Origin: Anaerolineae bacterium
Lineage (GTDB): Bacteria > Chloroflexota > Anaerolineae > Aggregatilineales > Phototrophicaceae
DNA length: 64,000 nt
Assembly (NCBI GenBank): GCA_022841825.1
Contig: JALHQT010000001.1
Span: 868,001 to 932,000, forward strand
Reading direction: 5' to 3'
The notes beneath the pieces were generated by a model, which was not told where the DNA came from, did no database searches, and worked only from the letters and a program-made list of their open reading frames with translations. This document shows positions 13,315 through 18,783 of this stretch, piece after piece. Made by a program: the position numbers and the translations under genes. Each line of letters starts with the position of its first letter. Positions within the stretch are counted from its first letter, which is position 1.

Positions 13315-13830
13315 ATGTCAGCTATTCCAACCGCAAGTCGTCCGAAGATGCAGAATTACGGGATCGAAGCTGAAGCCACTGGGTTGCTGGCGTGGGACTG
13401 GGTGAACGACCGTCTCATCAAAGCACGCAGCTACTGGATCGCCTCCACACGCCCCGACGGAACGGCACATGTTGCACCAGTATGGGGCGTCTGGCTGGAT
13501 GGCGCACTCCATTTCAGCAGCGACTCTCAGTCGCGCAAGGCGCGCAATCTCGCGCATAACCCGCGTGTCGCGCTCCATCTCGAAAGCGGCGATGAGGTCG
13601 TCATCCTTGAAGGGCGCGTGGTGACGGTGACGGATTCGAGCGTGCTGGCGCGCGTCGGGACCGACTACGCGGCGAAGTACGGTTTGAACCCAGTCGAAGA
13701 TGTTATGCCCGGAGCGGTGTTTTACGCCTTGGTGCCGACGATGGGCTTGAGCTGGGCGGAAGCCGACTTCCCCAAGACCGCCACACGCTGGACGTTCACA
13801 CCTACTGCACCTGAAGATTCGTCTTCCTGA
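13315..13830 (+). CDS. PPOX-class flavin/F420-binding protein
   Basis: A 171-residue protein of the pyridoxamine 5'-phosphate oxidase-like split-barrel family, which binds FMN, F420 or heme. The typical opening is seen: RSYWIASTRPDGTAHVAPVW followed by WLDGALHFSS and SRKARNLAHNPRVALHLESG. The conserved TAHVAPVWG strand fits the F420-dependent subgroup common in Actinobacteria and Chloroflexota, but cofactor and substrate cannot be fixed from sequence. The start ATG has AGGAGGAG 6 bases upstream. The last 29 bases overlap the convergent metal permease gene. No partner gene for the reaction is adjacent. Confidence 0.8.
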   Translation: MSAIPTASRPKMQNYGIEAEATGLLAWDWVNDRLIKARSYWIASTRPDGTAHVAPVWGVWLDGALHFSSDSQSRKARNLAHNPRVALHLESGDEVVILEGRVVTVTDSSVLARVGTDYAAKYGLNPVEDVMPGAVFYALVPTMGLSWAEADFPKTATRWTFTPTAPEDSSS

Positions 13831-15286
13831 AGTCGAGGACTTCGTGGGCACCGCGCTCGGTCAGCGTGACAAGTCCGCCCTCGACAGCAACCCACTGCTG
13901 CGCCCGCACGCCAGACAGCACCCAACGCATCCGCTCCCGCGACCAGCGGAAGTGTTCGTGCAGCGATGCTTCCGCGCGTTCCTCCGGCTGATCGCCATGG
14001 TTGTAGAGGTGTGCCAACAAGACCTGATGCGCAAACTCCTGGCGCTGCCAACGACGGCGGGCGAAATTCGCGATCAAACCGTAGCGCGGGGAAAAGACCC
14101 ACGCCAACACGAAGAGCATGAAGGTCGTCAGCACCATTGACGCAGAAATCGAGCTGTCCCAGGTGGTCTGCCCCCCTAACCCAATCACGCGGTCGAGCAG
14201 AACTAGCACATCCGATATCTGAATGATGCCGAACAGCGTGCCGCGTGCCAGGTCATAGCCGCTGTAGGCACCAACCACGCCGATCAGGATGGCGAGCGCC
14301 AGCATCGGCGCGAGTCTGTCGGTCAATAGATATGCCGCCGCCGCTGGGATGACAAAAAAAGCAACGACAAGGATTGACCCGACTGCATCAAACGCGCCAA
14401 CTGCGGCGATGCTGACGAGGATCATCAGTCCATAATGCAGCCACCCCGGACGAAAGCCCAGTGACCTTGCCAGCCCCTGATCGAAAGTGGAGAGCTTGAG
14501 TTCCTTGTAGAACAGTCCGACAAACAGCAGATTGATCAGCGTAATGACGCTCATGACCCCGATAGCGCGGGGGAAATAGACCAGCACAGGCGCTTCTGGT
14601 ATCAGTCTCAATCGCCAGGCTTCGGCAGCGGAATAGGTGCCGCAGTTGGCGCAGGCCGTCTCAAATACCGCCTGCGAGCTGCGGGGGCTGATGGCGTCAC
14701 GTTCGCAGTTTGTGCAGATGCGGCTGGTTTCCGCGCGTGGGTCGTCGGGTGTGATCACCACCGGATCGCAGCGCTCCAGACAGTAGCTGTTCGCGTTCGT
14801 CCATGCCAAACCAATCTCACCTACCATGACGGAGTCGGCATCGAGATGAATATTGGACGTAAAGCGTGCTATCAACAGGACGCCGATGGAGAATAGCAGC
14901 GGAAATGCTAACCCCAGCGCCGCATCTGCCTTGACAAGCCCCGAACGCTGGATTGCCTCGGTCAGAAGCACGGTTGCCACGCCGGCGAGCGCCGCGCCGA
15001 TAACCAGCAGCGGGGATGACAGATCCGGTTCGACGCCAAGCACGAAAACCATGAACAGGAACGACGCGACGATCCCCAGCAGAATAGTATGGCTGATGGC
15101 GTCTGTCGTCAGTGACATCCGACGAAGCAGCAGGAATGTCCCCAGCAGTGCACCAGATGCTGCGACCATACTGCCGACGATGACCGCCACCGTGCGTGGA
15201 TCGCCAAGGAAGGCATTGATCTGTTCTGGAGAAAACACGCTCACCAGGAGTTGAACGATAATGGTCTCAATCCCTTGCACGATCAC
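13802..15286 (-). CDS. troD: Zn/Mn ABC transporter permease with Cys-rich insert and winged-helix tail
   Basis: A 494-residue ABC-3 family permease. The membrane core has the family features LSLTTDAISHTILLGI-type helix and the coupling segment YKELKLSTFDQGLARSLGF. Two additions are unusual. Residues about 163-230 form a polar insert with six cysteines (C169, C173, C191, C194, C212, C215) in zinc-ribbon-like spacing. It sits one helix before the cytoplasmic coupling segment, so it should be extracytoplasmic. The last 85 residues form a soluble winged-helix-like tail with a RERMRWVLSGVRAQQWV recognition region. The start is GTG 15286, overlapping the upstream stop by 4 bases. GTG 15280 has better spacing from GGAG and is equally possible. 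troD is assigned by position in the operon. Confidence 0.88.
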   Translation of the reverse strand: MIVQGIETIIVQLLVSVFSPEQINAFLGDPRTVAVIVGSMVAASGALLGTFLLLRRMSLTTDAISHTILLGIVASFLFMVFVLGVEPDLSSPLLVIGAALAGVATVLLTEAIQRSGLVKADAALGLAFPLLFSIGVLLIARFTSNIHLDADSVMVGEIGLAWTNANSYCLERCDPVVITPDDPRAETSRICTNCERDAISPRSSQAVFETACANCGTYSAAEAWRLRLIPEAPVLVYFPRAIGVMSVITLINLLFVGLFYKELKLSTFDQGLARSLGFRPGWLHYGLMILVSIAAVGAFDAVGSILVVAFFVIPAAAAYLLTDRLAPMLALAILIGVVGAYSGYDLARGTLFGIIQISDVLVLLDRVIGLGGQTTWDSSISASMVLTTFMLFVLAWVFSPRYGLIANFARRRWQRQEFAHQVLLAHLYNHGDQPEERAEASLHEHFRWSRERMRWVLSGVRAQQWVAVEGGLVTLTERGAHEVLDFRKTNLQVQ

Positions 15287-16488
15287 ATCTCCAATCGACG
15301 CGCCGCATCAACGCCCGCGTTGGTCAGGCGCCAAAGCCGCCCATCGCCATGGACGAGACCCTCACGCTGGAGTTGGCGCAGCGCAATCCGCGCCGCATCG
15401 CCGCGCAGATTCACCAGCATGGATTCGTCGGTGATCTGCATCGGATCGTCATGGCTCAGACAGTGGCGATAAAGATCGCTCAGGACATTTTGCGCAGCGA
15501 AATTGCGTCGGTCACGACGTTCCGCGAGCCACGTCCAGATCACGCCGCGCCCAGGTGCCACCGCGAGCGCCACGAATGCCAGCGAAACCGCCGCTACGAC
15601 AATCAGCGGTCCCGTTGGAAGCCCGGCATCCAACCCGCTGACAAATGCGCCGCCCCCTCCAGCCAAGCCTCCGAGCGCTGCAGCAAGCAATACCATCGGC
15701 TCCATGCGGCTTGTGAATTGACGTGCGGCAACGGCAGGCGCGATCAACATCCCGACCATCAGGACGACCCCAGCCAACTGTAACCCCAGAACGATAGCGA
15801 TCACGATCAGCAGCGACAGCACAAGGTCGATTGCACGCGCGCGCAGCACGACAGTATGTGCGAATTCCGGATCAAACGTGATCAACTTAAATTCTTTCCA
15901 GAAGGCAATCATGACCAGCAGGACAGCGCCGCCGACCAGCGCGAGTACCACGACATCACGCTCGACAATCGCTGCCGCCTGCCCAAAGATGAAGCTCTTC
16001 AGACCCGCCTGGCTCGCGTCGCCGCGTCCCTGGATATAGGCAAGCAGCGCCAGCCCCAATGCAAAGAACGACGAAAGCACAATCGCCATCGCAGAATCCT
16101 GTTTCAGGCGTGTCGTCGTCGTCAGTGCGCGGATCAGCAGTACGCCGATCCACCCTGCCACACCAGCGCCCAACAGCAGCGCGGGCAGAGACCGTCCACT
16201 GACCAGGAACGCAATCGCGATGCCAGGCAGCGCCGTGTGCGCGAGCGCGTCACCCAGCAGGCTCTGCTGTCGCAAGACCGCAAAACTCCCCAGCGCGCCG
16301 CAGACCACACCCAACACCGCCCCACCCAGCACGACGGTTCGCAGAGTGTGCGTCCACTCGATGCTGAAGAGCGGTACTGCCACGATCAGGAGTATTGCAC
16401 CCGCAACTACCCATGAGACACTTTTTTCAAAAGCCACGCGCTGGAGCGAGGTTGTGATTTCATCCGAGAAACGATGTGCGCCCATCAT
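15283..16488 (-). CDS. troC: Zn/Mn ABC transporter permease with winged-helix tail
   Basis: A 401-residue ABC-3 family permease with 8-9 membrane helices, the [18 protein letters not shown] motif and the coupling segment [17 protein letters not shown]. It pairs with the next permease to form the membrane channel for divalent metal. The C-terminal 80 residues are hydrophilic and resemble a winged helix ([27 protein letters not shown]), matching in position and style the tail of the other permease. Start and stop codons overlap by 4 bases on both sides, so translation is coupled with the ATPase upstream and the permease downstream. Two ATGs (16488, 16485) are adjacent; the second has better spacing to AGGTG. 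Confidence 0.9.
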
Positions 16489-17300
16489 GCACCTGCTGCT
16501 TCTGGCGCTGCGGTCAATGCCCCAACACGTCCGCCATAAGTGCGGTGCAGGTTTTCATCTGTGAATGTCTCGCTTACCGGTCCGGTGGCGATGATTTCGA
16601 CATTCAACAACGTCACCCAGTCGAAGTATTCGGGCACCGTCTGCAAGTCATGATGCACCACAATGACGGTCTTGTTATTGGCGCGCAGCGTTTGCAACAG
16701 CGTCACAATCGCGCGTTCCGTCACCGCGTCCACCGCGGCAAAAGGCTCATCCATGAAGTAGAGCTGCGCTTCCTGAACGAGCGCGCGCGCCAGGAATGTC
16801 CGCTGCTGCTGTCCACCGCTCAACTGGCTGATCTGGCGTTTTGCGAACGCGCTCAAGCCGACTTGTTCCAGCGCAGCCAGCGCTGCATCGCGGTCGCGCT
16901 TTGTCGGGCGGCGCAGCCATCCCAAACGCCCGTAGCGCCCCATCATCACCACATCCAGAACGGTGGTCGGGAAGTCCCAATCGACACTCCCCCGCTGCGG
17001 GACGTAGCCAACGAGCTGTCGTGCCTGCTCGTAGGATTTCCCGAAGAATCGTGCTTCACCTGCCGCGCGCGGGATCAAGCCGAGTGCCGCCTTGATGAGC
17101 GTACTCTTGCCCGCGCCATTTGGTCCCACGATTGCCATCAGCACGCCCTCTGGCACACGCAGATCGACATCCCAGAGCGCGGGTCTACTGTTGTAAGCAA
17201 CCGTCAGATCTTCAACCTCAAACGAAGACTTCCCGGTATTCAATCGCGTGGTTGGCGCGGAGATAGAGAGTGCGTCGCTGGCAATGTGGACAGCCATCAT
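16485..17300 (-). CDS. troB: Zn/Mn ABC transporter ATP-binding protein
   Basis: A 271-residue ATPase subunit that energises metal uptake through the two permeases encoded downstream. Walker [14 protein letters not shown]-loop [11 protein letters not shown], signature [15 protein letters not shown], Walker [13 protein letters not shown] and switch VVHHD are all intact. The [14 protein letters not shown] wording is typical of the Zn/Mn subfamily. It is the first gene of a three-gene unit with 4-bp overlaps. A palindrome at 17336-17355 overlaps a possible -10 box upstream, so metal-dependent repression is likely. Adjacent ATGs at 17300 and 17297 both follow GAGGGA. Confidence 0.93.
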
Positions 17301-17335
17301 GTTCCCTCGGTTCGCGCTTTGACAATGCGCAAGAT

Positions 17336-17355
17336 AATTTTAGACCGGTCGAAAT
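17336..17355 (-). promoter_or_regulatory. DtxR/TroR-like operator upstream of the metal ATPase gene
   Basis: The core TTTAGACCGGTCGAAA (17339-17354) is a near-perfect palindrome with one mismatch per arm pair. On the minus strand it overlaps the possible -10 TAAAAT. The same 19-base pattern, with only three central differences, stands upstream of the cognate binding-protein gene at 18816-18834. The TTTAGAC-type half-site is typical of DtxR/MntR/TroR metal repressors, which is family knowledge. No such regulator gene is in the window. Confidence 0.65.
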
Positions 17356-17514
17356 CATATTAAAGTGTATCAGAATTCCCTAAGCGGCGCAACCACTCTG
17401 TCGCCAATTTCCGCCAAAGGTTGGATCAGCGCGCTGACCAAAGGCAGATTTGTGAGCTACGAATTCTCACGACAATCATGACATCTGAAAGCGAGCACTG
17501 GAGTTACTTTCCCG

Positions 17515-17733
17515 ATGAGTTTCAAACGTCTGGCACGCCTGAGCGCAGTCGCTATCACCGTGTTTCTCTACTTCAGCCTTATCATGTCATTGAGTCGCGT
17601 CGCGAATTTCGTCGGATGGCACCCGCTTTGGTGGCATCTTGGGATGATCACAGCATGGACTTTGCTTGCCGTGGCAATGAGCGTCATCTTCCTGTTTGCG
17701 GGGCAGCAAACGCACAAGGTCAAGACCGCTTGA
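17515..17733 (+). CDS. Small two-helix membrane protein
   Basis: A 72-residue protein with two clear hydrophobic helices (about residues 8-28 and 40-62), a basic N terminus and a basic C terminus (HKVKTA), so both ends probably face the cytoplasm. GGAG precedes the ATG at a somewhat long distance. I do not recognise a family. It sits on the opposite strand inside the metal-uptake locus, between the ATPase and the binding-protein gene, and ends 5 bases before a strong bidirectional hairpin, which supports it being transcribed. It diverges from the ATPase gene across the operator at 17336, so it may be metal-regulated too. Overlapping longer frames here lack such features. Confidence 0.5.
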   Translation: MSFKRLARLSAVAITVFLYFSLIMSLSRVANFVGWHPLWWHLGMITAWTLLAVAMSVIFLFAGQQTHKVKTA

Positions 17734-17737
17734 TAGT

Positions 17738-17776
17738 GGTCGATGGCATGGCAGCTTCTGTGCCGTGCCATCGACC
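17738..17776. terminator. Bidirectional hairpin between convergent genes
   Basis: Arms 17738-17753 and 17761-17776 pair over 16 bp with one mismatch around the 7-base loop GCTTCTG. It lies between the stop of the small membrane protein (17733) and the stop of the metal-binding protein gene (17791). There is no strong T-run on either side. Confidence 0.65.
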
Positions 17777-17790
17777 AGGTCTTACAGTGC

Positions 17791-18783
17791 CTACAAGAGA
17801 TCTTCTGGCAAAGTTCCAAGCGGCTCTGGAAACGGTGGTACTTCATAGCCGAAGCTCTCGACAATCGTGATCACATTGGTCGCAAGCATCCCGATATACG
17901 TGGCGCCGAATTCCCCTTCAGAGCCCATCGCGTCCGAAAAGAGTTCGCGTGCGCCGACTTCCACATTGCCACCTGCCGCCCGAACCGCTTCCTGCACAGC
18001 GCGTATCGCATTGGGCGGCACACTGCTTTCGACAAACACAACCGGGATCTCACGCTCGACGATGAATCGGGCTAAGTCCTCAATGTCGCCAACCCCCGCC
18101 TCGGACTCCGTGCTGATGCCCTGTAACCCGCGCACTTCCCAACCCACTGCATCGCCAAAGTATTGAAAGGCATCGTGCGACGTGATCAGCACCCGTTTGT
18201 CTTCAGGAACCTGGTTCATCGCCTCCTGCATCCATTCATAGAGCAGCACAAGCTGCACCACGTACGCCTCGGCGTTTTCTGTATAGGTCGCACTGTTGGC
18301 TGGATCAAGGCTTGCGAGTTCATCTGCCAATCCAATCGCCGCCAGCTCCCAATTGCGCGGGTCAAACCAGAAGTGTGGATCATCGACGTCGGAGAACTCC
18401 TCGGAAAGGCGGAAGCCCCCGATCGTGAAACCGGCATCCTTGACCGGTTGTGCCACCGCATAGGTCACGACATCACGCTCGCCGAGCGCGTCGAAGAGTT
18501 CGCCCATCCGCCCTTCCAGGAACAAGCCGCTGTAAAACACTGCGTCCGCGCGCGACATCGCGGCGACATCAGACTCCGTCGGCGCATAGAGATGCGGATC
18601 GACACCCGCGCCCATCATCGGTGTGAGGCGGATTTCATCGCCCAGCAGGTCACCGACAAGCACGCGCGTCAGATCGGTTACCTGGGTCGTCGTCGTCACG
18701 ACTTCAATCGAAGATTGTGCCCGCAGCGGCACGACTGCCAGCAGCAGTGAGAGCACAAGGAAAGTGATGAGCTTCGCGCGCAT
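17791..18783 (-). CDS. troA: Zn/Mn-binding lipoprotein-like substrate-binding protein, TroA type
   Basis: A 330-residue exported binding protein that delivers metal to the TroBCD-like importer. The N-terminal 22 residues are a signal peptide ending near LRAQS, with no lipobox cysteine. Metal ligands can be read by comparison with Treponema TroA: His64 (VDPHLY), His137 (DPHFWFD), His203 (TSHDAFQYF) and Asp284 (LFSDAMG). This His-His-His-Asp set is the TroA type, reported for Zn and Mn, and there is no long His-rich loop of the ZnuA kind. The gene is separated from troBCD by a small gene on the other strand, but both units carry the same operator, so they should be co-regulated. Confidence 0.92.
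   Translation of the reverse strand: MRAKLITFLVLSLLLAVVPLRAQSSIEVVTTTTQVTDLTRVLVGDLLGDEIRLTPMMGAGVDPHLYAPTESDVAAMSRADAVFYSGLFLEGRMGELFDALGERDVVTYAVAQPVKDAGFTIGGFRLSEEFSDVDDPHFWFDPRNWELAAIGLADELASLDPANSATYTENAEAYVVQLVLLYEWMQEAMNQVPEDKRVLITSHDAFQYFGDAVGWEVRGLQGISTESEAGVGDIEDLARFIVEREIPVVFVESSVPPNAIRAVQEAVRAAGGNVEVGARELFSDAMGSEGEFGATYIGMLATNVITIVESFGYEVPPFPEPLGTLPEDLL

Follow-up and report, generated by a model that had tools for sequence, protein, structure and literature searches.

Why should one permease of a bacterial metal importer carry six cysteines, all within a stretch that related permeases lack? The question arises from the window, a 64,000-nucleotide stretch of DNA from an Anaerolineae bacterium of the Chloroflexota. 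Here, four minus-strand genes in an operon-like row encode a binding protein, an ATPase and two permeases, PERM1 and PERM2, in that order. The genes are as follows.

17791..18783, minus strand: substrate-binding protein, TroA-like (PF01297, 7.5e-68; TroA, 4.3e-61)
16485..17300, minus strand: importer ATPase (PF00005, 4.7e-28)
15283..16488, minus strand: PERM1, first ABC-3 permease, without insert (PF00950, 1.8e-63)
13802..15286, minus strand: PERM2, second ABC-3 permease, in the TroD position and insert-bearing (PF00950, 6.7e-35; PsaC superposition)

PERM2, the last gene, starts with GTG and encodes 494 amino acids; its coordinates and frame are those of the first-pass annotation. Judged by sequence, the operon encodes a predicted TroABCD-like importer, with a binding protein of the TroA/ZnuA type, one ATPase and a pair of ABC-3 permeases. 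TroABCD of Treponema likewise has one binding protein, one ATPase and two permeases (excerpts of PMC2628430), and among solved structures TroA (1TOA/1K0F) is closest to the window binding protein. The predicted substrate class (zinc, manganese or iron) is read only from ligand motifs in the binding protein. Between the binding protein and ATPase genes lies a gap of 490 bases (17301-17790), or 451 if the ATPase frame is extended to its upstream stop. In 31 related loci that contain the two genes, their open reading frames, taken from stop to stop, overlap or are at most 120 bases apart.

PERM2 matched PF00950 with 121.3 bits, in two stretches, against a curated cut-off of 20.1. The AlphaFold2 model of the whole protein, built from seven sequences of which three have the insert, had a mean pLDDT of 81.1 and a pTM of 0.66. 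It superposed on PsaC chain 7kyp_F with a Z of 29.0 and an rmsd of 3.2 over 274 aligned residues (model residues 22-418). The transmembrane metal site of MntC comprises Asp47, His51 and Asp94 (excerpts of PMC8487065); by hand mapping, these correspond to D62, H66 and D121 of PERM2. By profile, model and alignment, PERM2 is an ABC-3 permease with a PsaC-like fold and an Asp/His/Asp metal site. The parts of this core are listed below.

15089..15103, minus strand: D62 and H66, two of the three transmembrane metal-site residues (alignment to PsaC)
14924-14926, minus strand: D121, third metal-site residue (alignment to PsaC)
14861..14929, minus strand: TM5, residues 120-142, leading outward from the metal site (DSSP on the model; PsaC alignment)
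14804..14872, minus strand: gate segment on the extracellular side, residues 139-161, immediately preceding the insert (ZnuB alignment for 146-158; hand mapping)
14513..14569, minus strand: TM6, residues 240-258, returning to the cytoplasm after the insert (model)
14450..14512, minus strand: cytoplasmic coupling-loop region KELKLSTFD...G, residues 259-279 (sequence; PsaC alignment)
13805..14092, minus strand: winged-helix-like domain at the C terminus, residues 399-494, presumed cytoplasmic (structural matches)

PsaC, the manganese permease of Streptococcus pneumoniae (7KYO/7KYP), shares the fold, metal site, gate segment and coupling loop with PERM2 but has no insert after the gate segment. 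It also differs in forming a homodimer (PMC11779740, in part), whereas the window operon encodes two different permeases. A further difference is the C-terminal winged helix of the PERM2 model, which aligns with proteins other than PsaC. Among solved chains, this domain matched MepR (Z 11.4 over 76 residues), DtxR (Z 9.8 over 80) and IdeR (Z 9.3 over 71). Foldseek returned only E-values of at least 0.42 for it, and residues 406-494 had no Pfam match at 0.01. By its predicted fold, which is MarR/DtxR-like, the winged-helix-like C terminus is perhaps a built-in regulatory domain. PERM1 has an alignable C-terminal extension (at the end of 15283-16488), and insert-free PERM2 permeases also align over the winged-helix-like C terminus.

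The position of the cysteine-rich stretch was determined by direct alignment. PERM2 is about 75 residues longer than ZnuB and PsaC at this place: window residues 158 and 251 align with ZnuB 119 and 138, where the ZnuB stretch ends LFGDL, and 146 and 252 align with PsaC 118 and 146. Profile and PERM1 alignments put the plain PERM1 loop loosely against the insert, and the direct alignments were used to set the insertion point. The insert itself, of about 65 residues, is flanked by the extracellular gate segment and by the helix preceding the coupling loop.

14588..14800, minus strand: six-cysteine extracytoplasmic insert, residues 163-233 (alignments; model pLDDT)
14768..14782, minus strand: first pair, C169-x3-C173 (sequence)
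14705..14716, minus strand: second pair, C191-x-N193-C194 (R-x-C-x-N-C in 86/86 genomes)
14642..14653, minus strand: third pair, C212-x-N214-C215, then G216 (CxNC twice in 85/85 complete copies)

What is known of related permeases places a gate beside the insert. In MntC, a hydrophobic ladder in TM5 from Ile97 to Ile112 forms the extracellular seal (excerpts of PMC8487065). The available part of PMC11779740 describes I112-D120 of MntC as the gate region, with I112 extracellular and a possible docking position. The same text prints the gating residues of PsaC as Phe121/Phe124; our hand count of the PsaC sequence finds Phe at 121 and 125. TM5 and TM5a form the periplasmic gate of BtuC (PMC3260306, in part). 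By hand mapping, the MntC and PsaC gate residues fall at approximately 139-155 of PERM2, and the insert begins about 8 residues further on. Residues 145-162 are the sole stretch modelled with a pLDDT under 50, so the placement of the insert against the gate is positional rather than measured. As far as the sequence goes, the start of the insert could be a place where the binding protein docks.

By homology to PsaC and ZnuB, we infer that the insert is extracytoplasmic. This is the topology given in the first-pass annotation, which put the insert outside the membrane and before the helix leading to the coupling loop; both alignments agree. A cytoplasmic insert, or a miscall, is very improbable. 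The nearest sequence matches of the insert profile are intracellular zinc fingers, but the PERM2 core fits PsaC at the Z of 29.0, TM5 and TM6 lie on either side of the insert as they do of the corresponding place in PsaC and ZnuB, and 85 complete insert copies exist.

PERM2 has no cysteines other than C169, C173, C191, C194, C212 and C215, all within the insert. For six randomly placed cysteines to fall within one given 68-residue stretch has a chance of about 7e-6, for a stretch picked post hoc. The commonest pattern is C-x3-C-x17-C-x2-C-x17-C-x2-C-G. All 85 complete copies, taken as one copy per genome from 86 genomes, have six cysteines. The strict six-cysteine pattern occurs in 83 of the 86 genomes, 79 of which have 17/17 spacing. 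Among the deviating copies, L144 keeps all six cysteines with Arg in place of G216. L153 (G793) also keeps six but has an 18-residue insertion inside the first pair, giving C-x21-C instead of C-x3-C. The 86th copy, L147 (G099), is cut by the end of its contig after four cysteines. We conclude that the insert is real because the six cysteines are conserved in 85/85 complete copies; the same conservation rules out chance or a frame error as its origin.

We also aligned PERM2 with 22 other permeases that have a complete insert, drawn from 61 genomes (its own included) and a genome collection scanned for exact matches to short peptides from PERM2. In these 23 sequences the six cysteines, A185, R189, N193, P201, R202, A206, F208, N214 and G216 are invariant. 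L006, which shares a contig with L013, was left out of this alignment and of the trees. L008/L031 (one contig), broken off inside the insert near the contig end, was left out of the insert counts. In records SJ143 and CFX4 the insert is identical to that of G002 and G143.

The cysteine positions in the first-pass annotation are exact, and a search for homologues found the insert in 86 genomes with the cysteines conserved. Neither of the outcomes that this annotation named as refuting it came about, given the extracellular topology deduced by homology and the conserved cysteines; its location and its description of a module stand. Briefly, the insert profile matched 72/154 genomes of the order and 36/396 of a class sample, 14 of the latter belonging to one genus outside the order. 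The 86 genomes are the 72 within the order and these 14, with a single copy in each; the window genome thus has one. In G022, a second profile match of 50 residues contains a stop (L159; E 1.2e-4). Seven genomes matched in a phylum sample of 400, namely the window's own and six weak matches among the other 399. On reading, none of the six was permease-like: five we take to be one 110-residue zinc-ribbon-like open reading frame, and the sixth is presumably a class I lysyl-tRNA-synthetase-like protein. Nothing in the plasmid records matched the insert region of the window.

Orthologues without the insert were found in sister operons (L097-L107) from the same genus, family and order. Gene order is identical in the 10 of these loci that hold all four genes, and the binding-protein ligand motifs are as in the insert clade (10/10 sequences). 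Among the matches listed, the permease segments beside the insertion site are 50-63% identical. The stretch aligned to window residues 159-239 has 74-89 residues and exactly six cysteines in 31/31 insert-type permeases, against 16 residues and zero cysteines in 11/11 insert-free orthologues. None of the 11 insert-free genomes matched the insert profile. In PERM1 the loop at the matching place is an unexpanded 50 residues (37/37). Consistent with the first-pass view that ordinary ABC-3 permeases have only a short loop here, the insert is absent from PsaC, ZnuB, PERM1 and the sister operons.

A PERM2 tree of 42 sequences, with the insert columns omitted, has one branch that parts the 31 insert-bearing from the 11 insert-free permeases (SH-aLRT 100). 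The sister operons group apart from the insert clade in each of the four gene trees; the same split has a support of 99 in each of the binding protein (34 sequences), PERM1 (37) and ATPase (35) trees. Some operons lack a gene in the trees because contigs end, and L108 is a truncated binding protein. Taken at the sequence level, the insert appears to mark one operon lineage of the Chloroflexota, with a single gain or loss. Because the split is common to the four genes, the trees cannot reveal coevolution of any particular gene.

What does the insert fold into? In the full model it has strands at 165-171, 176-178, 187-191, 208-212 and 216-218, with a short helix at 194-197 and another at 220-225. 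The pLDDT block means for residues 171-230 are 82-89, from three insert sequences. When residues 161-240 were folded alone, again from three sequences, block means were 89-94 for 181-220 and the pTM was 0.53. Hence, with fair confidence, the insert is predicted from three insert sequences to be a small, beta-rich, separately folding domain. Compared with solved structures, the 80-residue insert model had no Foldseek match (best E 4.3), and a VIA comparison with 37 chains had no Z of at least 2; small domains are easily missed by either.

Sequence comparison pointed to zinc fingers. The best PDB matches of the insert profile were GATA fingers (GATA-3, E 3.1e-4), and a LysRS-like zinc-finger protein from one genome matched at 7.4e-4. 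The two CxxC knuckles, C191/C194 and C212/C215, have a spacing compatible with a zinc-ribbon or GATA-type Cys4 finger. Indeed, GATA-type and LysRS-like Cys4 fingers share the C-x2-C-x17-C-x2-C spacing and the CxNC...CxNCG arrangement with the insert. These fingers act inside the cell, whereas the insert is exported, has an extra C-x3-C pair and has no fold match. Pfam matches were weak and mixed. Zinc-ribbon families matched 8/23 insert members at E up to 1 (best 3.7e-4, in a single member), a disulfide-rich inhibitor family 6/23 (best 0.0021) and HiPIP 4/23 (best 0.13). The insert segment of the window itself matched zinc-finger families at best at 0.021, below cut-off. The first-pass description 'zinc-ribbon-like' finds weak support. 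The second and third pairs, in the form C-x2-C-x17-C-x2-C-G with weak profile matches, fit it; the sub-cut-off Pfam scores and the lack of a fold match do not add to this. We make the weak suggestion that these two pairs are zinc-knuckle-like in sequence, and claim no descent.

Do the cysteines hold metal or form disulfides? On the metal side are the constant Asn in both CxNC motifs, the Gly after the last cysteine, present in all complete copies but one, and the weak resemblance to zinc fingers. In our judgement, metal in at least one predicted insert site is somewhat probable. The genome also encodes VKOR (2.4e-20) and two COX1-family proteins (haem-copper oxidases), which make extracytoplasmic disulfides plausible. 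The insert might be a passive scaffold of three disulfides with neither metal nor regulation, serving perhaps only in cell-surface contact or protection. We regard this reading as rather unlikely on balance, though it is a strong rival and several observations suit it. The cysteine number is even in every complete copy, VKOR and the COX1-family oxidases are encoded in the genome, and the 18-residue insertion of L153 within the C169-C173 pair is easier to reconcile with a disulfide than with a tight knuckle. In the binding proteins of the insert clade, nine have two mature cysteines and thirteen have none, so that 22/24 have 0 or 2, a sign of disulfides outside the membrane; however, L095 and L112 (2/24) have a single one. 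The constant Asn of both CxNC motifs and the final Gly are also knuckle-like, and a disulfide would give them no obvious function. A mixture of one Cys4 site and a C169-C173 bond fits the metal evidence, the disulfide evidence and the L153 insertion.

The CxNC pairs could instead cycle between dithiol and disulfide and so couple metal uptake to the oxidative state. The CxxC motifs, VKOR and the oxidases are in keeping with such a switch. Even so, we consider it improbable: no thioredoxin-like family or fold was among the Pfam or Foldseek matches of the insert, and all three pairs are constant. Knuckles containing Asn are atypical of redox CxxC motifs.

The cargo of the importer also has a bearing on the role of the insert. 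The aligned ligand positions of the binding protein are H64, H137, H203 and D284. By hand count, E207 of MntA aligns with H203; the ligand set is accordingly His3Asp, which we take to be as in TroA. NCBIfam matches were below cut-off only, with zinc AztC first and manganese MntC second. A second ZnuA-family protein of the genome (L164; G000:C9:77037-77987) has a long loop rich in His, Asp and Glu; the ABC-3 permease L161, which has no insert, is encoded away from it, on C4. In ZnuA proteins, a His-rich and acidic loop of this kind marks zinc uptake. Because the genome has this separate His-rich ZnuA, the cargo of the window importer is probably not zinc alone; manganese, iron or a mixture is more likely.

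The binding protein has a signal-peptide-like start and no lipobox. By pattern, the lipobox is absent from 24/24 binding proteins of the insert clade, discounting a match in the signal-peptide core of L110. In the sister clade it is absent from 6/10, where four further pattern matches (GGGC or GGSC) lie in the mature part and were discounted. We considered that the insert might retain a soluble binding protein. This lipobox contrast was dropped as it may be one event in the tree, and the other ZnuA of the genome likewise lacks a lipobox. Nine of the 24 insert-clade binding proteins (L080, L082, L083, L085, L086, L088, L090, L096 and L109) have a C-terminal extension with two cysteines 26-27 residues apart. 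Five of the 10 insert-free binding proteins have two cysteines near the mature N terminus instead.

With such a cargo, could the insert handle the transported metal? The first-pass annotation had proposed that a module facing the binding protein could relay or gate metal. Thiolates would then take metal from the binding protein and hand it on, or occupancy by zinc, cadmium or copper would open or shut the gate. The insert comes right after the gate segment and offers soft ligands on a metal importer. Zinc inhibits uptake by the manganese importer MntBC-A (excerpts of PMC8487065), and in that light it would be reasonable for an importer to sense a competing metal. Against this, sister operons without the insert, partly from the same genus, keep the same binding-protein ligands (10/10). 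With a separate His-rich ZnuA in the genome, zinc probably enters mainly by another route than the window importer. All six cysteines are constant, as in structural sites. Moreover, manganese is a poor thiolate partner, and the more likely manganese, iron or mixed cargo therefore weakens a thiolate relay. We conclude that relay of the transported metal by the insert is unlikely, and that a relay or a metal-sensing gate together is an improbable account of it. A competing metal, or the redox state, may nonetheless regulate the importer.

Our favoured reading, which we hold tentatively, is that the insert is an exported docking or lid domain, stabilised by metal or by disulfides, with one copy per operon at the gate of one permease. 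The cysteines would stabilise the insert, the likeliest arrangement being a Cys4 zinc-knuckle pair (C191/C194/C212/C215) with a C169-C173 bond or extra ligands; alternatively, three disulfides would do so. As a platform for docking, or as a lid, the insert would bring the cognate binding protein into position above the gate. Any metal that it binds would be structural, not cargo. Sequence features that favour this reading are the six cysteines in 85/85 copies, the single domain per operon, its presence in PERM2 only and its position adjacent to the gate. The small fold predicted with fair confidence and the knuckle matches to GATA-3 and the LysRS-like protein speak for it too. Insert and binding protein separate at the same branch in each of the four gene trees. 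This is as expected of a docking pair, and inheritance of the whole operon explains it equally well. Evidence against this reading is the want of a PDB structural match, the weak and mixed Pfam matches, the VKOR and COX1-family proteins that make external disulfides plausible, the low pLDDT of the gate at 145-162 and the small number of insert sequences, three, behind the models.

To our knowledge, little is known of docking on compact ABC-3-type importers or of the roles of non-identical permeases. Among the matches listed from a partial library, no paper concerned a cysteine-rich insert in an ABC-3 permease. The insert-bearing operons and their plain sisters, partly from the same genus, are a natural pair with and without the domain for the study of docking and asymmetry. 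If metal is bound outside the cell, the insert would be an uncommon exported Cys4-type site. A bolder possibility, to which we give little credence, is that an exported zinc-thiolate domain at the gate of one permease is a metal-occupancy switch, in which a competing soft metal (zinc, cadmium or copper) alters the docking surface and so bars the binding protein. Were that true, a manganese or iron ABC importer would carry its own external metal sensor.
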